Of a DNA stretch of 20,340 nucleotides, positions 792 through 18,123 are shown piece by piece. Made by a program: the position numbers and the translations under genes. Below the pieces are notes generated by a model. It saw nothing but the letters and a program-made list of their open reading frames with translations. It was not told the DNA's origin and ran no database searches. Every line of letters begins with the position of its first letter. The stretch's first letter is position 1. Source of the DNA: a virus; the IMG/VR virus record IMGVR_UViG_3300037264_003935, positions 1 to 20,340 of that record; one strand, 5' to 3'.

Positions 792-1349
792 TTATTTCGA
801 TTTCAATTCTTCTATAAGACGTTTTTCCCAATCTGGTAGATCAGATTGTATTTGTCCAAACACAAGATCAATGTTAACTTTATCGACTCCTGATTTTTTC
901 ATTGAGTCATAAAAAAACTCCATCCACAATTTAAACATTTTCTGAATAACTGGAGATTTAAAATCAAGTTCTGACTCAGAACTTGTTTGAAGTTTCTTTA
1001 ATAATGTATCAGCAAGAGATTTTAAACTTGCAATTCTAGCCATTGTAAAATTAGAAAAATTTTTCCCTTCCCTCATAGCCTTCTGTCTCTCAAATTTTAA
1101 ATGGGAAATTTCTTCAGAAATTTCCCGGATAACTAAATCAATAAAAACAGAGGTGCTCGTACCTTCAAGAGAAGCACGAACTAAAGACTGTTTTTTGGCA
1201 AAATCTTCATATTCAGATAACTGATCTTCATCAAGTAATTCGCACTCAGGAATCTGACCACTCTGGTCAACAACAAATTCCGCACCAATTGAAACAGAGT
1301 CAATCTGTTTCCCATCAGGCAATGTTATTTGAGCCCCATTGGAGGCCAT
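792..1349 (-). CDS. Small helical protein directly upstream of the terminase; position suggests a terminase small subunit
   Basis: The protein has 185 residues with an ATG start and no strong Shine-Dalgarno sequence. It has a short N-terminal beta-like part (ITLPDGKQIDSVSIG), then mostly charged helices from about residue 40, with a probable coiled region around 70-125. It is acidic overall. I see no recognisable helix-turn-helix at the N-terminus, so the small-terminase idea rests only on its place immediately before the large subunit and on its size and helical character. It could equally be an unrelated virion or packaging accessory protein. Its stop codon is immediately followed by the terminase start, and a 15-base gap separates it from the gene before it. 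Confidence 0.75.
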   Translation of the reverse strand: MASNGAQITLPDGKQIDSVSIGAEFVVDQSGQIPECELLDEDQLSEYEDFAKKQSLVRASLEGTSTSVFIDLVIREISEEISHLKFERQKAMREGKNFSNFTMARIASLKSLADTLLKKLQTSSESELDFKSPVIQKMFKLWMEFFYDSMKKSGVDKVNIDLVFGQIQSDLPDWEKRLIEELKSK

Positions 1350-1364
1350 AATAAACTATACTAG

Positions 1365-3269
1365 TTAAAATTCCGGATCTGGAACTGAATATTTTATTTC
1401 AAATTTATTTGAAGGTGTTGACTTCACCTCAAAGGCAATTTCATTGCCAAGTTCATATTTTTCAACAGGGTTTTCAATCGGACCTTGTATGACTGGAAGA
1501 GCAACTCTCTTCGCTGCAATCCGAACTTCATCAGGAACATTCCTGATGATATCCCGGGCATATTTAGAACATTTTCCTGGGACTAATTGGCAAGTACAGC
1601 CTGTGCATTTAGACCCTGCAATTATGTACGGAACTGATTTGTCCTTCAAAACAGAAGAACCACGAACGCAACCTTTACCATAATCAGAATAAACAGTCGG
1701 ATCTATAAAATAGAAACCTTGAACACCATCGTTTTCAGATGCAAATTTGCCAATTTCAGGAACTTGAACAAGATCTGATTTCGTGTAACGACTTTGAATG
1801 GCAGCAACTAATTTGCGACCCCTCAATCCAGAATTCATCAAATGAGAAATTGTTTTTCTAATTTCTTCCGGATTTGTTTTTATAGAAGATTCTGTTGATG
1901 CAGACCCGAAAAAGAATTCTTGGTGCCCACGATCATAAACACGGACTTCTTCAGAAGGTGGAACATGACGATTCATTTGAGAAGTCAAATGAACCCAATT
2001 CATGTCATCCTTCAAGTTTGAAGCCACAATCCGAGCTTGATCAAGCGAAATTCGACCTTGATGAATGGCACGTTCTAAAGCAGTAGAAAAATTTAAACGA
2101 CCAACTTCAAGTTTGGTCTGAACAATCTTAGAAAGGTTAGAGATTTGAGCACAAGCCCCATCTTTATTACATTTACAAATTCCGCAAGTTGCGGACCTAC
2201 GAATTATATACTCAGGACGAATGTCTTTTGATTTCAAAAAGGCAAGAGTTTTCCTGCAACCACCAAGGGCGTCCATATCCAAATAAGTGTGACCCAAAAT
2301 CCCAAATTCAGAAACTAATTTACGAAGATCAAGTTCAGATGACGATGCAAGCTGCAGCGTGTCATCATGTCCCGCCATCATGCGGCGGGCATAAGCCATA
2401 TAAGAAGGACTTGGAAGAAGACCCTCGGGCTTCTTTGAAGCCTGACGATCCAAATAATCTTTAACTTGCTCAGGAGTTGGTTCAATTCTAGTCGGATGTT
2501 GCTCTCGAATTGTTTGAACCGATTCTTTGTAAACTTTAACTGAGTTGTTAAAGGCACTCTTTAAACGAAGTTTTACATCACCAGTGGTTTTATAATCTCG
2601 ACCTTCTTGTTCAAATTCAGATGCATAATGTGCAAATACCTGTTCGTTATATGGAATTTCACTAACAATTCTCTTTTTAAATGAAGAACAATTTCCTGAA
2701 TTATTACAAACACAGTCTGCACAGTTGTTTTTTGCTAAAACAAAAAGTGCTCGTTTCGAATGCTTCGTAGCAATTTTAACGTCTTCCCCATTTTGGGCAC
2801 ATTTTGGAAAATTTGAAGAATCCAAATAAACATTCCCAAGTAAACCTTTTTCATTCAAAACATCTTTAATTGTAGAAACATGATTCCGAAGTTCTGATTC
2901 CGGAAACTCTAAACGAAGCTTTTCTCCAATAGTTTGGACTGGCAAACCAGAAACAACATAAGAAGCTACCCGATTTCGAATCGGCGTTCTATTATCAACA
3001 ACGCCCTGAGGGGACACTGAAGATTTTGGGTTAACCATGGTATGAGGACGTAATGGGATAAGACTTGGAATTCTTTCGTCAGGTTCCTGACGAAGAGCAT
3101 GTTGAAGTTCTGGAATTGTGTCGAAATTTTGTTTAGGCAATGCTTCAAAGTCATGGTAGACCTTCTCGTCTACAGCAAGCCATGACAAATCAGCGACCGA
3201 CTGATTATATATAATATCGCGGATGTCATCCATTCCACGATCAGCATCAATATCCCGCTTTAGAGGCAT
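1365..3269 (-). CDS. Protein with three tandem five-cysteine modules (probable metal-binding repeats), unknown function
   Basis: I do not recognise this 634-residue protein. It carries the same module three times. Each begins with G-x-x-G-x-x-[YF]-[LI]-D (residues 142-150, 323-331, 515-523), then one cysteine (157, 338, 534), then a cluster C-x2-C-x-C-x5/6-C (183/186/188/194; 362/365/367/373; 555/558/560/567) followed by a basic or helical tail. All 15 cysteines I can find lie in these modules. Modules 1 and 3 are also preceded by similar helical stretches (about 96-140 and 466-505). The spacing suggests Zn or Fe-S binding, which is inference. There is no signal peptide or membrane segment. 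It lies between two acidic low-complexity proteins and the terminase genes, so a virion, portal-vertex or DNA-binding role is possible but unproven. The ATG start has only a weak upstream purine run. Confidence 0.85.
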   Translation of the reverse strand: MPLKRDIDADRGMDDIRDIIYNQSVADLSWLAVDEKVYHDFEALPKQNFDTIPELQHALRQEPDERIPSLIPLRPHTMVNPKSSVSPQGVVDNRTPIRNRVASYVVSGLPVQTIGEKLRLEFPESELRNHVSTIKDVLNEKGLLGNVYLDSSNFPKCAQNGEDVKIATKHSKRALFVLAKNNCADCVCNNSGNCSSFKKRIVSEIPYNEQVFAHYASEFEQEGRDYKTTGDVKLRLKSAFNNSVKVYKESVQTIREQHPTRIEPTPEQVKDYLDRQASKKPEGLLPSPSYMAYARRMMAGHDDTLQLASSSELDLRKLVSEFGILGHTYLDMDALGGCRKTLAFLKSKDIRPEYIIRRSATCGICKCNKDGACAQISNLSKIVQTKLEVGRLNFSTALERAIHQGRISLDQARIVASNLKDDMNWVHLTSQMNRHVPPSEEVRVYDRGHQEFFFGSASTESSIKTNPEEIRKTISHLMNSGLRGRKLVAAIQSRYTKSDLVQVPEIGKFASENDGVQGFYFIDPTVYSDYGKGCVRGSSVLKDKSVPYIIAGSKCTGCTCQLVPGKCSKYARDIIRNVPDEVRIAAKRVALPVIQGPIENPVEKYELGNEIAFEVKSTPSNKFEIKYSVPDPEF

Positions 3270-3278
3270 GATTTTACT

Positions 3279-4502
3279 TTATTTGATCTTGGCCATTAAC
3301 CGGGCAACACCGGCCGCGTGTTTAAAAGCGGCGTCGGAAACCCCGTCATACCCTATGTTCTTTACATGGAAATCTACCAATTGAGAGTGGAGATTTCTCA
3401 TGTCTTCTGAAATTGAAGACTTCTCGGAAGCAAATTTAGCAACTGGAAAAGTATCCATGTTATCGTCAAACACGATTTCATGACGAAGCTTTAAACAACG
3501 AATAATGTCTGACGCCATAAACTGACGAAAACCATTCCCAGTGTCTTGAAGAAAAGCCAAAACGTGGCGCCTTGTCAGATTCTTCTTCCCATATTCTTTA
3601 ATAAATTTATCAGTTAGGTCAACTACCATTTTTATGTCTGTTGCTTTACGATTCATGGCTAAAACCTTTCCTCCTAAAAGATCTTCCTGATTAGACTTTG
3701 GATAATCAAGATTCTCTTTAAAATCATTCGATGGGAATCCATTCGGGCCTGATATATCCTCTATAACTTGACCAGACCAATAATTGCCTAAAGCTCCGAG
3801 AAAATCGTCCAGCGAAACTTCATTCTTGTCAACGGATGGAAGGGACTCTTCTTCTTCTGAAGCAAAAGGACCGCCTTCAGAGGCCCAATAATCAGATTCT
3901 GAAATATATTGTTTCAATTCCCCAAGGAGTTTTTTAACACTAATTACAGTTTTATCGTAATAATCTGACCGAGCCGGTGGGTTGTCTTCATCATCAGGAA
4001 GTTCTGAACTTTCTGAACTTTCTGAACTTTCTGAACTTTCTGGAAACTCTGAATACCCAGGAAGCTCCGTATATGAAGGAAGTTCAGAATGTCGAGGAAA
4101 CGTTGGACCAGCTAAATTCTCTTCATAATCTGCATATTCAGGAAGTCTAGGGGTTGTAGGTCCAGTTGGGCGTTTTTCCCAACCATGCCAATGTCCTTTA
4201 TTTTGTGGAGGTTGGTCATAGTCCCCCGGAAGTCCAGCTGGACCAGCTGTATGACTCCCAGTTATCGGAGGAGATTGTGGATAACTCAAATACTCAGGCA
4301 AACTTGGGGGACTATCCGAAGGACCGTTAGTTGGAAGACTTTGTTTTGAAAAATCTCCCTGTTCATCATCTTCTCCATGAGAAGAATTATCATCAACATC
4401 ATATGGGCCAAGCCCAAAATCTTTAACTCTTCGAGAAGGAAGAATTGGCCACGGAACTTTAGACGGCACTTTATCTTTCCCAAAGTCCCTTATGGAAATC
4501 AA
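3279..4502 (-). CDS. Acidic low-complexity protein with conserved-looking C-terminal domain, unknown function
   Basis: The protein has 407 residues. Residues about 35-180 are rich in Pro, Ser, Glu, Asp, Tyr and Gly, with repeated L-P-x-Y turns (LPEY at 68 and 120, LPSY at 141, LPGY at 147) and an E-S-S tandem run at about 155-166. The C-terminal third (about 280-407) looks globular and helical, with segments such as RRHVLAFLQDTG and DIIRCLKLRHEI. The start is a TTG at 4502 inside the last 32 bases of the preceding gene. No ATG lies in frame before the globular part, so TTG is the most economical start, but it is not certain. The layout mirrors the gene before it (disordered N-terminal half here, disordered C-terminal half there). 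It may be a virion or scaffold-type protein; I cannot assign a family. Confidence 0.75.
   Translation of the reverse strand: MISIRDFGKDKVPSKVPWPILPSRRVKDFGLGPYDVDDNSSHGEDDEQGDFSKQSLPTNGPSDSPPSLPEYLSYPQSPPITGSHTAGPAGLPGDYDQPPQNKGHWHGWEKRPTGPTTPRLPEYADYEENLAGPTFPRHSELPSYTELPGYSEFPESSESSESSESSELPDDEDNPPARSDYYDKTVISVKKLLGELKQYISESDYWASEGGPFASEEEESLPSVDKNEVSLDDFLGALGNYWSGQVIEDISGPNGFPSNDFKENLDYPKSNQEDLLGGKVLAMNRKATDIKMVVDLTDKFIKEYGKKNLTRRHVLAFLQDTGNGFRQFMASDIIRCLKLRHEIVFDDNMDTFPVAKFASEKSSISEDMRNLHSQLVDFHVKNIGYDGVSDAAFKHAAGVARLMAKIK
4002..4042. repeat. In-frame 9-base tandem repeat encoding Glu-Ser-Ser
   Basis: Four perfect copies of TTCTGAACT (plus-strand orientation) run from 4002 to 4037, followed by a partial fifth copy. 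On the coding (minus) strand they give repeated Glu-Ser-Ser within the acidic part of the 407-residue protein. Because the unit is 9 bases, gain or loss of copies keeps the frame, so copy number could vary between isolates without breaking the gene. Confidence 0.9.
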
Positions 4503-5502
4503 AACTTTTCTTTGATTCTTTAGTCATATCTTTTGTCGGATCAGCAATCGATTTCATTAATAAAATTTCTTTTTCAGTCAAACCACGACGATAAAAATCA
4601 AGCGGGCGATCATTATCGGCCCCAGGAAGCCATGAATAAGTTGATGCAGCTTCTTTATTCTTCTTTTTCTTAAATTTGAAACTAGAAGAATCCCCATCAG
4701 TCGAATCGTAATTAACTGGATAGGCTAAGTCATAATCACCAAATCCTGGATATTTCTCAATATCCATATTATCAGATGGCCAGTCTTCCGGAGGATTAAA
4801 GGAACCTTCAAAACCAGGACCCTCTCCAGGACCAACCTGGGTTACACGAGGCCCAGAAAGAGTTTCTACAGGAAGAGAAGAATTGCCACCTGCCTGGCGA
4901 GAAGAAGTCTGGAAAAACCCTCCATCTTCCTCGTCGTCTTCTTCCCCAGGGTTTTCAACAGTCGGATTCATTGTAGAAGCATCAGGGTTCACATAAACTT
5001 CAGGTTCTGAAGGAGATGGCTGAATTTCTTCTTCAAATTCTTCTTCTACAAACCCCTCAGGATTTTGTTTAATTTCTTGAGAATCCTGAACTAGTTCTTC
5101 AGTTTCCGGAGCTGCAGCACTACGCCAATGAGGAGCTGAAATTTCATCATGGAGGGTATCCGCAAAAGATGATAAAAATTCAGAAGCATTAGCTAAATTA
5201 GAACGCATATCCTTAATATTTTGAATATAACCCTTCCCGCCAAGAAGGCCGTCTGGGCTAAATCTTGAAGAGGACATTTTGGATAAAATCCGATAAGCAG
5301 CAATAGCATAACTATGTGAACGTTGAACCGCCCAAAGAATTTTTGCTAAATCATTATGAGAGCTCTGATCCCAATCAAAATCGTGAACACGAACATCCCT
5401 CCGAAGAGGGCCCTGGTCTTTGACGAATTCAATTCGGCCCGCTGTATGAACTCTCCCAACAGAAGAGTTACTTATACTTGTGGCAATTTTATGTAAATTC
5501 AT
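4471..5502 (-). CDS. Protein with globular N-terminus and long acidic low-complexity C-terminal half, unknown function
   Basis: The protein has 343 residues. The start is ATG at 5502 with a good Shine-Dalgarno AAGGA six bases upstream. Residues 1-128 look folded and helical (AKILWAVQRSHSYAIAAYRIL, a glycine turn FSPDGLLGGKGY, then DTLHDEISAPHW). Residues about 131-275 are acidic and disordered, rich in Glu, Pro, Gly and Ser, and are followed by a basic patch (FKFKKKKNK) and a short helical tail. It overlaps the next gene by 32 bases. I see no enzyme motif, signal peptide or membrane helix. Its position ahead of the terminase, next to a second acidic protein, suggests a virion or assembly function, but that is inference only. 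Confidence 0.8.
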   Translation of the reverse strand: MNLHKIATSISNSSVGRVHTAGRIEFVKDQGPLRRDVRVHDFDWDQSSHNDLAKILWAVQRSHSYAIAAYRILSKMSSSRFSPDGLLGGKGYIQNIKDMRSNLANASEFLSSFADTLHDEISAPHWRSAAAPETEELVQDSQEIKQNPEGFVEEEFEEEIQPSPSEPEVYVNPDASTMNPTVENPGEEDDEEDGGFFQTSSRQAGGNSSLPVETLSGPRVTQVGPGEGPGFEGSFNPPEDWPSDNMDIEKYPGFGDYDLAYPVNYDSTDGDSSSFKFKKKKNKEAASTYSWLPGADNDRPLDFYRRGLTEKEILLMKSIADPTKDMTKESKKSFDFHKGLWER

Positions 5503-5504
5503 AA

Positions 5505-5750
5505 TTATTCCTTAATTGGCCCAGTGGAGTCGTCAACAAGACGAGTTATGAATGGCCCATCGTCATCTTCTCCAAGCTGCCAAAAATCTTGCTTAGAAAG
5601 ATGAACTAATTTGTCCATTGCAATAAACTGAAATCCAGACAATTCATGGAGAGATGAAATTCGAATTTTCCCAGATGATGCTTGGCGAATTGGAGGATTA
5701 AAAAAATCATCAATAGAACTACATGAAAGCCTGATATCTTCCGGTTTCAT
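5505..5750 (-). CDS. Small acidic protein, unknown function
   Basis: I place the start at ATG 5750 (81 residues), because AGGTG at 5757-5761 sits six bases upstream. In-frame GTG and ATG codons at 5759 and 5756 overlap that Shine-Dalgarno sequence and are less likely. The protein has a hydrophobic beta-like core (SLHELSGFQFIAMDKLVHLS) and an acidic, glycine-containing C-terminus ending TGPIKE. It looks like a small compact domain. The stop lies two bases before the start of the next gene, so the two are probably translated together. I do not recognise a family. Confidence 0.75.
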   Translation of the reverse strand: MKPEDIRLSCSSIDDFFNPPIRQASSGKIRISSLHELSGFQFIAMDKLVHLSKQDFWQLGEDDDGPFITRLVDDSTGPIKE

Positions 5751-5790
5751 AGACATCACCTAATATTATGCCCAATTGAAATTTTAGCGA

Positions 5791-6699
5791 TTATGGATTT
5801 ATAACATTAAGGTAGACTGGAACATCTATGAAACTGTTAGAAGCCGTTGGAGATTGGAAACGAATAGTATCAGAATATGTCCCAACAATTTGCGGGATTT
5901 TAGTTATATCAAGTGAGAAAATTACGGCAGTAGAACCGCCCCCAGGAAGTGGGCCACCTGAAACAGGATTTATCAGAAGCCAATTGCTAGAATTATTGAC
6001 CTTGGCAACCACAAAGTCCATGGTAGACGTCACTGGACCGGTGTTGCTAACTGCAACCGATACAGAAGAAGGAGTGGGGTTCCCACAAGTCTGAGTGAAG
6101 TTTACTGTAGTTGGAGAAACTGAAATAGTTGGTTTCGGAAGAACTGTAACTATAACATTCGAAGTTACGATTTGTGCAGGAACGTCTTGATTTGAAATAT
6201 TAACAACACCTAAATATGGAGAATTTGCCGCAAGAAGAGTTGTCGGACTTACACGGATCAAAAATGAAGCCGTAGAATTCTGAGGAACCCCAACGACTTG
6301 AGAAGGCGTAGCAGTTAACCAGGAAGTGTTCGGAGAAGCATTGGCAGTCAAGAATGACCCAAACGCACCGTTATTTGTAATAACAATATTCCCGACGTCC
6401 TGAGACGCGGCACCTTCAGTCACAACAATATTGAAATTCGGAGGGATAGGAGAAGAAATAAGAATTGATGCTTGAAGCTGTTGTTGTAAGCTAGAAACCG
6501 AATCCGACATTGCAGTTACAACGTCGCCAGGCAAAGGAACGTTGATTGAAAATAAAGGACCAAAAGGAGAAGTTATATCAACAACTTCGTAACGCTGTCC
6601 AAAACTATTTATATTATTGGCACGTGTCACCCATTTCCAAATGCCTCCAACAGACTCAAGCTCAAATTGGACGCTAGAAACAGCGGTAAACGTGGCCAT
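5791..6699 (-). CDS. Two-BACON-domain (Ig-like) protein, probable virion surface or adhesion component
   Basis: The protein has 302 residues. An N-terminal segment (1-85) of beta strands and a short helix (SDSVSSLQQQLQAS) is followed by two Ig-like repeats, about 86-187 and 191-300. Each contains the BACON-style core of a tryptophan in an N/S-x-W-L context (127 and 240) followed by a proline and a glycine-rich turn (INPVSGG in the second), and ends in a V-x-V-x-V/L strand. BACON domains are known from bacterial glycan-binding proteins and from phage structural proteins, where they are thought to bind surface glycans. There is no signal peptide, which fits a cytoplasmically assembled virion protein. 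No Shine-Dalgarno sequence is obvious before the ATG. Other Ig-like families (ASPM/SPD-2/Hydin type) are an alternative reading of the same fold. Confidence 0.8.
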   Translation of the reverse strand: MATFTAVSSVQFELESVGGIWKWVTRANNINSFGQRYEVVDITSPFGPLFSINVPLPGDVVTAMSDSVSSLQQQLQASILISSPIPPNFNIVVTEGAASQDVGNIVITNNGAFGSFLTANASPNTSWLTATPSQVVGVPQNSTASFLIRVSPTTLLAANSPYLGVVNISNQDVPAQIVTSNVIVTVLPKPTISVSPTTVNFTQTCGNPTPSSVSVAVSNTGPVTSTMDFVVAKVNNSSNWLLINPVSGGPLPGGGSTAVIFSLDITKIPQIVGTYSDTIRFQSPTASNSFIDVPVYLNVINP

Positions 6700-7339: not shown

Positions 7340-8119
7340 TCATCTAATCGGCATAATTTGGGCGTCTCCTCGATTTTCAAATTGAGGGAAACGCACCTCA
7401 TGCCTAATCACGAAGTGCTTATCGGAAATACTAAAGAACACTTTCCAATATTTTGAGTATTTATTGTTTTCAATGCAATTTTTGAGATCAATCTCAGCTT
7501 CCTCAATCAATTCTTTGCTCTTACCCTGTTTTACAAGGGTTTGAGCATAAGATTGCTTTTCTTTTACTTCTTCTGCAATAAGCTCCTTAATACGATTAAG
7601 AGCCCGGAAGAACCGGTGCCTCACTCTTCCTTGAGTGAGGCCCATTTGTTTCGCTATTTCACTTTGACATGTGGTTTTATACATACGCCAAAGAATTTCC
7701 AAATCTTGTTCAGTAAATTTCGGCCCCAAATCAAGTTCAAATTCTTCTTTATCAAGTTCAGGAATTGTCATCAAAAATCTTATACGTTTTAGACCCCGGT
7801 GAAGTCTATATGAAACTGCAGCCTGAGTAATTCCAAAAAGTCTAGCAATTTGTTCTTGCTTCATTCGTTGTTCATAATAAAGACCAATTAAATCAGACTC
7901 TCGATCTGGAATCTCTTCTAAATACTTACGAATCAAATCTAGCTTTTCTTTATCGAAAAGAGATTTACTATCAATCTCTGGACCTTCGTCAACTTCGAGT
8001 TCATGTTCAATTATTGAATCAATATCATCATATGGGTTATTGCCCCAACCCAGCTTATCCTGGTTGCTGAATTTTGAAGACATATCGCTCGGATTTTGGA
8101 TGACTATATGAGATGACAT
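7340..8119 (-). CDS. Tandem sigma-70 region 4-like transcription factor
   Basis: The protein has 259 residues from ATG 8119. GGAG (minus strand, 8127-8130) lies seven bases upstream, so I prefer this ATG over the in-frame GTG at 8125. Two helix-turn-helix domains of the sigma region 4 type are present: residues about 60-117 (core IARLFGITQAAVSYRLHRGL) and about 135-182 (core IAKQMGLTQGRVRHRFFRAL). Regions 2 and 3, which bind the -10 element and core RNA polymerase, are not recognisable, so it is not a standard sigma factor. The N-terminus (1-50) is acidic, and a C-terminal extension (about 220-259) is unassigned. It probably directs or modulates phage transcription, perhaps switching to the late genes to its left. 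It is preceded by a structured 169-base leader. Confidence 0.82.
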   Translation of the reverse strand: MSSHIVIQNPSDMSSKFSNQDKLGWGNNPYDDIDSIIEHELEVDEGPEIDSKSLFDKEKLDLIRKYLEEIPDRESDLIGLYYEQRMKQEQIARLFGITQAAVSYRLHRGLKRIRFLMTIPELDKEEFELDLGPKFTEQDLEILWRMYKTTCQSEIAKQMGLTQGRVRHRFFRALNRIKELIAEEVKEKQSYAQTLVKQGKSKELIEEAEIDLKNCIENNKYSKYWKVFFSISDKHFVIRHEVRFPQFENRGDAQIMPIR

Positions 8120-8138
8120 GGACACGCTCCAGGGTACG

Positions 8139-16295: not shown

Positions 16296-17129
16296 TCATA
16301 TCCTTTCTATCATACCTAAAGAATCACTCAATTTCTTCTCTGAAGACAAAAATTTTTTTCCTTCTTCGCAAATACTTTTATAGTCACAAATTTTGCATTC
16401 AACGGAAGGAGACGGGTTAAACATACGGAGTCGAATTTTGTCTAAAACTTCAAAAGAAGAATTTAGACATTTACGAAGAGAATTTTCATCGTAATGAATC
16501 CATTGTACGGGATCCTCAGGAAATCTATAAAATATATACCCAATTCTAGTTGGAGATTTGTGATATTTAATATAATGAAGCATCGCGTACCAAATCAATT
16601 GTTCTGGGTCTGCGTAAACACCCTTATATTTTGAACTTTTACCGTCAAGAATCCAAATTTGACCACTTTCTTTGTAATGAATAAAATCAGCACGACCTGC
16701 TAATTTCACAGAATAATCACGCTTTTCATGTTTGTATAATAAATCAAGTTTAAATTCAGCTTGACTATTTAATGACAAAAGTTTGTTGTCTTGTATAATT
16801 TTAAGCCCTATTGGAACAAAAGTATTAAGTTCATTCTTAATTGAATTGAAGAAAATTTTGTCTGAACTTATGTCGAATTTCTTCTCATGACTAGCAGATT
16901 CTATAGCTTTGTCAATCAACAAAAGCAAATCAGAATCCGGGTTTGGATTTGACCAAATCTTATCTCTATAAAACCATTCAAAAATTTTCCCGATGGAAAT
17001 CCCAAAAATAGCATTTCTTGGGTCAGTCTCTATTTTTGGTTTTGATATATACCTGTATTCATATTGTTTTGGACAATTTGTGTACGTCTTTTTTGACGAG
17101 TAACTTAGATATTCTGAATTATAATTCAT
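16296..17129 (-). CDS. PD-(D/E)XK nuclease with probable Fe-S cluster (Cas4/AddB/RecB-like)
   Basis: I start at ATG 17129 (277 residues), because GAGG lies six bases upstream. An earlier in-frame GTG at 17150 has no such site. The nuclease core shows E51 in GKIFEWFY (motif I), D148 in GRADFI, D162-x-K164 in WILDGKSS, and Q177 and Y181 in QLIWYAM. These are the hallmarks of the RecB/Cas4 branch. Cys19 (YTNCPKQYEYRY) and the C-terminal Cys245, Cys248 and Cys254 (ECKICDYKSIC) have the spacing of the Fe-S cluster pins of Cas4 and AddB. It is expected to degrade or resect DNA ends. The start overlaps the SbcD-like gene by 11 bases and the RecD2-like helicase is next upstream. No cas1/cas2 is present, so a CRISPR role is not suggested. 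Confidence 0.85.
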   Translation of the reverse strand: MNYNSEYLSYSSKKTYTNCPKQYEYRYISKPKIETDPRNAIFGISIGKIFEWFYRDKIWSNPNPDSDLLLLIDKAIESASHEKKFDISSDKIFFNSIKNELNTFVPIGLKIIQDNKLLSLNSQAEFKLDLLYKHEKRDYSVKLAGRADFIHYKESGQIWILDGKSSKYKGVYADPEQLIWYAMLHYIKYHKSPTRIGYIFYRFPEDPVQWIHYDENSLRKCLNSSFEVLDKIRLRMFNPSPSVECKICDYKSICEEGKKFLSSEKKLSDSLGMIERI

Positions 17130-18123
17130 CCAACGCCTCATCTGTTCCACCAGATTCAGCAGCCTCTATGATTTCCAAAGTTAGTTTTCTTAAATCCTCT
17201 CCGAAATTGTTCCAATCAATAGAATCCATAAAAGAACGTGGATCTTTATGGACTTGAGAATTTTGTTTAAAAACCTTGATGAAGTCCTCGATCCCTTTAC
17301 GTTCTTGATCGAGTTTTTTCTTTCTTTCTAAGTCAAAAACTTCAGCAGCGTCTTTATGAGGAACGATGTGTTCTTCAACAGAAATGCCTTGAGAATTAAA
17401 AATTATTGAACCAATTTTTGGTTTTCTTTCTAAATTCTCAAAAGTTAAAGCACCACGAGAAATCGCCCCTAAATTAATAAATTTAGTCCCATGAACGTCT
17501 TGAACTCCTTGATCTTTGTGGTAATGGCCAAAAACATAAACATCTGGACAACCATTAAAAACTAAATCACGATAATCAAAAACCGGTTCTTTGAAAAAAC
17601 TTTGGATTTTTTCACTCGGGGCGTTAGAAGCCAAAGCGTGGACAACGGCTACCAAATACTCGTCGTCCTTCTTTTTCTTCAAGATTGATTGTAAACGCTC
17701 AATTGAATTGTCTTTTGAATATGGGATGCCTACAACACGGACTTTTAGTGTTCCAGAATAAAAAATACTGTCAATAGATTTAAAAACATCAGATTCGAAT
17801 AAAACATTTACAGGTTGTTTTGGAAGAGTATCCAAGTTATCATAATTCATGTCATGATTACCAATGGTAACATGAGTCGGACAAGGGTAATTTTTGTGAA
17901 TTTTTATGACTTTAGATACTAATGAATGAGTTGTTGCGCTAGAAATTTTAGAATGGAACAAATCGCCGCCACGCAAAATAGCATTAGCAGAAAATTCTTT
18001 AGCAAACTCTCCTTGCCATTCTAATTTAGAAAGAATTGCATCTTTGTACGAGTCTTTCCGGAACCCCGGGTTGCTTTCAGCTAAATGCTCGTCGGATGAA
18101 GTAATCAACCTCACTTCTGACAT
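17119..18123 (-). CDS. sbcD: SbcD/Mre11-like DNA exonuclease
   Basis: The protein has 334 residues and a calcineurin-type metallophosphoesterase domain with all five motifs: D11-x-H13 (SSDEHL), GGDLFH (D54), GNHD (89-91), H162 (VVHALAS) and GHYHKD (H200, H202). The capping region is short, and a C-terminal charged helix (about 245-300) could contact an ATPase partner's coiled coil, as in Mre11. In known systems the SbcD/Mre11 and SbcC/Rad50 pair trims hairpins and blocked ends. Here the only partner in the window is the half-ATPase at 14285-14926. The start is ATG with AAGGA six bases upstream. Confidence 0.92.
   Translation of the reverse strand: MSEVRLITSSDEHLAESNPGFRKDSYKDAILSKLEWQGEFAKEFSANAILRGGDLFHSKISSATTHSLVSKVIKIHKNYPCPTHVTIGNHDMNYDNLDTLPKQPVNVLFESDVFKSIDSIFYSGTLKVRVVGIPYSKDNSIERLQSILKKKKDDEYLVAVVHALASNAPSEKIQSFFKEPVFDYRDLVFNGCPDVYVFGHYHKDQGVQDVHGTKFINLGAISRGALTFENLERKPKIGSIIFNSQGISVEEHIVPHKDAAEVFDLERKKKLDQERKGIEDFIKVFKQNSQVHKDPRSFMDSIDWNNFGEDLRKLTLEIIEAAESGGTDEALDEL

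Follow-up and report, generated by a model that had tools for sequence, protein, structure and literature searches.

CYS634, a single-copy protein family of huge phages with repeated four-cysteine modules and a probable head or packaging role

The 634-residue protein encoded on the minus strand at positions 1365-3269 of the window, the whole stretch of 20,340 nucleotides analysed here, is named CYS634 in this work. As judged from its sequence and those of its relatives, it belongs to a new single-copy family of huge phages which is without precedent in the libraries searched. The conservation of its cysteines argues that each of its modules very probably binds a metal ion, and a role of the protein in the head or in DNA packaging is probable. 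The kind of protein as such is already known, both as metal-knuckle domains and as head or packaging proteins. The features of the locus are collected in Table 1.

Table 1. Features of the CYS634 locus in the window, ordered by position.
Feature	Coordinates	Strand	Basis
Terminase large subunit (TerL), N-terminal part, cut by the contig end	3..791	-	phrog_9 E=1e-11
185-aa conserved ORF (g185) between CYS634 and TerL	792..1349	-	position
CYS634, 634-aa protein with three Cys4 modules	1365..3269	-	ORF, family, alignment
Conserved C-terminal motif ENPVEKYEL, residues 599-607, low pLDDT	1449..1475	-	alignment
Module 3, residues 466-582, C534/C555/C558/(C560)/C567	1524..1874	-	
Module 2, residues 287-384, C338/C362/C365/(C367)/C373	2118..2411	-	
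Module 1, residues 94-211, helical half and C157/C183/C186/(C188)/C194	2637..2990	-	
Acidic conserved N-terminal segment, predicted disordered	3090..3269	-	alignment; pLDDT <50 for most
407-aa ORF (g407), syntenic in close relatives, has K/R-x-A-S	3279..4502	-	
343-aa ORF (g343), syntenic in nearly all relatives	4471..5502	-	motif-enriched family, window copy without motif
84-aa ORF (g84), syntenic, motif-enriched	5505..5759	-	

The plus-strand reading of the same interval contains stops throughout, and the open frame of CYS634 runs only about three residues past the ATG. The layout described in the original prediction was recovered: all 15 cysteines of the protein sit in three modules and none lies outside them, a lone cysteine stands ahead of each cluster (C157, C338 and C534, with gaps of 25, 23 and 20), and a shared G-x-x-G-x2-[YF]-[LI]-D is found in all three modules, where it precedes the cluster as GLLGNVYLD, GILGHTYLD and GVQGFYFID. 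The full spacings are C157-25-C-2-C-1-C-5-C in module 1, C338-23-C-2-C-1-C-5-C in module 2 and C534-20-C-2-C-1-C-6-C in module 3. Shuffling the protein yielded at least one C-x2-C-x-C-x5/6-C in only 9 out of 20,000 cases. The N-terminal segment carries the motif DLSWLxVDExxYRxxExLPKQNLDxxPEL. Across the family this terminus is acidic (pI about 4.5) and the modules are basic, with a median pI of about 8.4-9.0.

In IMG/VR, a scan backed by tblastn recovered 11 loci from one sequence and 50 loci from a profile. The relatives lie on contigs of up to 529 kb, and their best segments are 24-50% identical. With a whole-protein profile CYS634 is a single gene in 16 of 17 large records, and split matches fall in one open frame; the lone miss, phage Tunturi 5, was later found to hold a more distant homolog. 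We define the family by its C-terminal module, QGxxxxDPTxYxDYxxGC-x(20-22)-C-x2-C-x(8-9)-C, with one extra Cys allowed in the last spacing. The window protein carries this module, and its single-copy gene is followed at a short distance by g185 and TerL.

Among 50,697 phage records there was one significant match, the 485-kb uncultured record LR745208.1, which has no annotation. Its ORF at 414658-416499 on the minus strand, left unannotated there, has the same position in the cluster as in the window, and its C-terminal module (C-x20-C-x2-C-x-C-x5-C) shares the extra Cys with the window protein, but it has lost the cysteine set of module 1. No CYS634 relative was found in bacterial and archaeal genome contigs or in plasmids, and in Bacillus phage G, whose portal is related, no homolog of the cysteine modules was found. 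Searches of Pfam, PHROGs and NCBIfam with the window protein and all 40 members gave only scattered matches of one or two members, none of them consistent; BORCS7 and TerS_N were rejected as family assignments (E >0.003, inconsistent across members). Comparison of PDB sequences with the CYS634 profiles yielded nothing credible. The earlier statement that the pattern belongs to no known phage family is thus borne out for Pfam, PHROGs, NCBIfam and PDB sequences.

Each module was turned into a profile of 38-40 homologs, and the three profiles were compared by hhalign. Modules 1 and 3 align with E=6e-24, modules 1 and 2 with E=2e-17 and modules 2 and 3 with E=8e-11. The modules are therefore homologous, in agreement with the proposal of a repeated cysteine module acting as a ligand-binding unit. 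What had to be given up is the strict unit of five cysteines: modules 1, 2 and 3 all conserve the lone Cys, both cysteines of CxxC and the last one, which makes four ligands per module, and the extra "x-C" is C or H in module 1 and mostly peculiar to the window protein in the other two. Among the 40 homologs this position in module 1 is His in 21 and Cys in 14 sequences (C or H in 35 of 40), and it is Cys in only 3/40 sequences in module 2 and 1/40 in module 3. C534, C555, C558 and C567 of module 3 are the same in every one of the 40 aligned homologs, the window protein among them, and the C-terminal site is the sole universal one of the family; the clade of LR745208-like proteins retains it alone.

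The cysteines of a module are lost together. Each of the 120 aligned modules from the 40 homologs has at least four cysteines or none. A strict all-or-none rule was relaxed for L090/L091, which have a single leftover Cys in module 2. Modules with none are module 2 of L031, L038 and L045, in which the module is otherwise retained, and deletions in L055, L056 and L059. Where single ligands have moved, the total stays at four: L021, L022, L034, L035 and L043 lack two cysteines, the lone one and the first of the knuckle, and show a cluster C-x5-C-x-C-x5-C, and L056 and L128-L131 have lost the lone Cys and show C-x2-C-x2-C-x10-C. Joint loss and compensating gain of this kind point to a tetrathiolate metal site and are unlike what chance or disulfide pairs would produce. 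They also lend indirect support to a site of the zinc-ribbon or treble-clef kind, in which four Cys/His would meet at one Zn. The number of sites in the family is 1, 2 or 3, for which about five changes are needed on the TerL tree. Triplication therefore describes the window protein correctly and is common in the family, but with one lineage holding one site it is not a defining trait.

The predicted ligand is probably zinc, possibly an Fe-S cluster. Zinc is favoured because the spacing from the CxxC pair to the last Cys ranges between 5 and 13, because His and Cys alternate at the fifth position, and because the knuckle is placed among short strands. The same features weigh against the sites being [4Fe-4S] clusters, which would make CYS634 a redox- or oxygen-sensing or a structural Fe-S head protein. 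We regard this as rather unlikely, although the arrangement C-x(n)-C-x2-C-x(5-8)-C is similar to that of Fe-S staples, of which the Cas4/AddB type reads CX(n)CX2CX5C, although a PD-(D/E)XK nuclease matching Cas4 is also encoded in the window, and although an Fe-S site has been described in a phage protein, the tail tip protein of lambda. The Cas4/AddB staple and CYS634 have their cysteines in the same order (first a lone one, then CxxC, then a last one), but CYS634 differs from these nucleases in having no PD-(D/E)XK domain, in its repeated modules and in its variable last spacing. Membership among the Fe-S staple nucleases (Cas4/AddB/Dna2) was rejected, as no PDDEXK or Cas4 Pfam match was obtained in the 40 members at E up to 0.1. 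That the cysteines form disulfides or a redox relay and hold no metal is highly improbable: CxxC motifs do occur in thiol-disulfide proteins, but the loss of four cysteines at a time with shifted compensation fits a tetrahedral site and not pairs, the bacterial cytoplasm is reducing, and Pfam searches gave no thioredoxin-family match.

AlphaFold2, run on the 40-sequence alignment, predicts the modules with a pLDDT mostly above 90, and disorder for the N-terminus and part of the linkers. The pTM of the whole model is low (0.35), which is compatible with beads on a string; module 3 modelled alone reaches a pLDDT of 88 and a pTM of 0.79. Its predicted order is four helices, another, short helix that immediately follows the lone Cys, and short strands which surround the CxxC knuckle and the last Cys. 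Foldseek searches of the PDB, run for the full model and for module 3 (best E about 0.6-1.2), and of viral models, run for module 3 (best E 1.9), gave meaningless scores only. A winged-helix-like or Cre core fold was rejected, as the VIA-align Z of up to 4.4 concerns mostly the helical half and lies within background.

The gene neighbourhood was approached independently, starting from TerL. CYS634 was found at 71 of 80 TerL loci; because seven of the nine loci without it are contigs ending just upstream of TerL, the relevant figure is 71 out of 73 loci with enough upstream sequence, in which it stands 5' of TerL. The placement of the gene next to the terminase, as first described, needs qualification: it does belong to the terminase/portal cluster but is not directly adjacent, since TerL is two genes off with the 185-aa ORF in between. 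The gene order of the clade, kept with minor losses, is dnaX, KOW/NusG-like, 5'-3' exonuclease, sigma region-4-like, BACON-like, g84, g343, g407, CYS634, g185 and TerL, and in relatives the portal gene comes after TerL. By its position g185 is a candidate small terminase of the clade. Its family looks helical and comes right before TerL in almost every relative, and comparison of this family with PHROGs gave no consistent match.

Further genes of these loci deserve mention in their own right. A 302-aa protein at 5791-6699 of the window (minus strand) has a tandem BACON/Ig-like look and is syntenic across the clade; no credible Pfam or PHROGs match was found for it. The "sigma" protein at 7340-8125 (minus strand) matches the sigma-70 region-4 HTH twice in tandem without a region 2 match, and may therefore not be a normal sigma factor. 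The RecB/Cas4-like PD-(D/E)XK nuclease of the window is encoded at 16296-17150 on the minus strand (PDDEXK_1 E=1e-18, Cas4 E=6e-4), has C-terminal cysteines and lies beside SbcC/SbcD-like, sliding-clamp-like and RecD2-like genes. At one related locus (L053, 15008-18124) the portal gene is broken by a long in-frame, intein-like insertion, and in some relatives ORFs resembling free-standing homing endonucleases are placed between the g185 gene and TerL (L010, 1224-1976; L014, 10820-11290).

Tunturiibacter phage Tunturi_5 (PP885688) is a cultured 309-kb jumbo myovirus of an acidobacterium (PMC11924767). Its protein gp348 (XOB77791.1, 531 aa, annotated as hypothetical protein) was found by the module-3 profile with E=2e-5 and aligned by hhalign with E=9e-4, which is a weak relationship. 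It has two sites, C-x25-C-x2-C-x10-C and C-x18-C-x2-C-x7-C. Like CYS634 it is thus built from C-x(18-25)-C-x2-C-x(7-10)-C modules, and G-x2-G-x2-F-L leads into the first of these, but gp348 is shorter, has two sites instead of three, and its N-terminal motif is not clearly conserved. Orthology is supported by the neighbours: gp349 matches the g185 family (E=1e-4), gp347 matches g84 (E=3e-4) and gp346, annotated as exonuclease in Tunturi 5, matches the sigma-like family (E=1.5e-3), and after gp348 and the g185-like ORF the locus continues with an inserted DarB-like gene and then TerL. The gp348 gene is near the end of a long operon with connector, tail, head-maturation-protease and major-head genes. 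No virion proteomics was found in the text of the Tunturi 5 paper (PMC11924767).

A short motif, K/R-x-A-S, is shared by several proteins of the cluster. In 42 proteins of the CYS634 family it occurs 125 times against 27 expected from shuffles (maximum 40), at positions which shift from member to member. It is also enriched in g84 (35 observed, 2.8 expected), g407 (23 and 5.2) and g343 (35 and 10.7), weakly in g185, and not in the TerL, portal, BACON-like, sigma-like, exonuclease and dnaX proteins. Among the 326 ORFs of Tunturi 5 the top four for this motif are gp348, gp328, gp332 and gp350. Of these, gp328 is a DNA ejection protein, gp332 adjoins the head maturation protease and gp350 is DarB-like; proteins of the DarB-like class are packaged in P1 heads. 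The fibres and the major head protein of the Tunturi 5 operon are free of the motif and the sheath has one copy. The distribution suggests that K/R-x-A-S may be a head-interior processing signal, such as a prohead-protease site, or a targeting signal. The statistics are no more than suggestive, because the motif was noticed after gp348 had been found, common ancestry inflates the counts, and after correction for 326 tests gp348 alone remains significant. As in these huge phages, an excess of the motif was seen in some of the late proteins of Tunturi 5 (including gp345 and gp347) and of Bacillus phage G. Within the huge-phage clade, tail fibre, TerL, portal and replication proteins lack it or have it at background level.

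What we infer beyond the family itself, namely the identity of the metal, late expression, a location in the head interior, DNA binding and the exact role, would combine as follows. In a large clade of huge phages CYS634 would serve as a late protein of head morphogenesis/DNA packaging. Each module would form a small basic domain, with four helices in its first half and a beta-rich second half that carries the cysteines; there the lone Cys, the knuckle made by CxxC and the final Cys would hold a single structural metal, with Zn2+ as the likeliest ion. The modules would be strung on flexible linkers between the acidic conserved N-terminal tail and a putative C-terminal docking motif. Basic metal modules arranged on linkers between conserved termini probably make a multivalent adaptor, sited at the prohead or in its interior, which may bind DNA and/or partner head proteins during genome packaging or as an internal head protein. 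This picture of a late, metal-stabilised head-interior adaptor we hold tentatively, with somewhat less than even confidence. The absence of K/R-x-A-S from the major head protein of Tunturi 5, the weak relationship to Tunturi 5 and the leftover Cys of L090/L091 count against this reading.

Two other roles were weighed against this adaptor. CYS634 could be a packaging accessory factor which is absent from virions and handles DNA for the terminase, like ORF68/UL32 of herpesviruses. ORF68 has three zinc fingers per chain, binds dsDNA and is needed for packaging, and no phage homolog of it is known (PMC7889075). Together with the tight linkage of CYS634 to TerL and its several zinc-type sites in a mainly helical protein with basic modules, this speaks for such a factor; it is nevertheless unlikely. 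The ORF68/BFLF1-family chains of the PDB gave no sequence match at E up to 10, the ligand order is C-x2-C ... H ... C in ORF68 versus C ... C-x2-C ... C in CYS634, the CYS634 modules are separate beads and not one compact fold, and the head-interior motif K/R-x-A-S favours a head protein. The likeness to ORF68/BFLF1/UL32 would be by functional analogy only, in three zinc sites, basic DNA handling and a tie to terminase and portal, whereas ORF68 forms its CCCH sites from distant residues in one fold and assembles into a pentameric ring (PMC7889075). With no sequence match and a site form other than CCCH, membership in the ORF68/UL32 family is not supported. In the fold searches no ORF68/UL32 chain was among the matches listed for the CYS634 models. 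That CYS634 is, by analogy, the zinc-stabilised phage counterpart of ORF68/UL32, delivering replicated genomes to the terminase, is very unlikely; if true, it would place an ORF68/UL32-like packaging factor in phages, where none was known. A regulatory DNA-binding protein, acting in late transcription or coupled to replication and merely adjoining the packaging genes, is quite unlikely too. The genes for a tandem sigma region-4 HTH protein, a KOW-motif protein, a clamp loader and a 5'-3' exonuclease are found just upstream, and the helical half is loosely similar to winged-helix and Cre-core domains, but this Z of about 4 is background, the Tunturi 5 gene belongs to the structural operon, a long way from the genes for the clamp loader and the antiterminator, and K/R-x-A-S is common to putative head proteins.

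Knowledge of huge phages comes almost solely from metagenomes, and names are lacking for the majority of their head genes. CYS634 is a possible marker for this worldwide clade of huge phages, and the shared K/R-x-A-S points to a possible signal for head-interior targeting or processing in jumbo phages. As the family is near-obligatory, single-copy and linked to the terminase, as one metal per module is predicted, and as a cultured relative exists, its function is directly testable in Tunturi 5.
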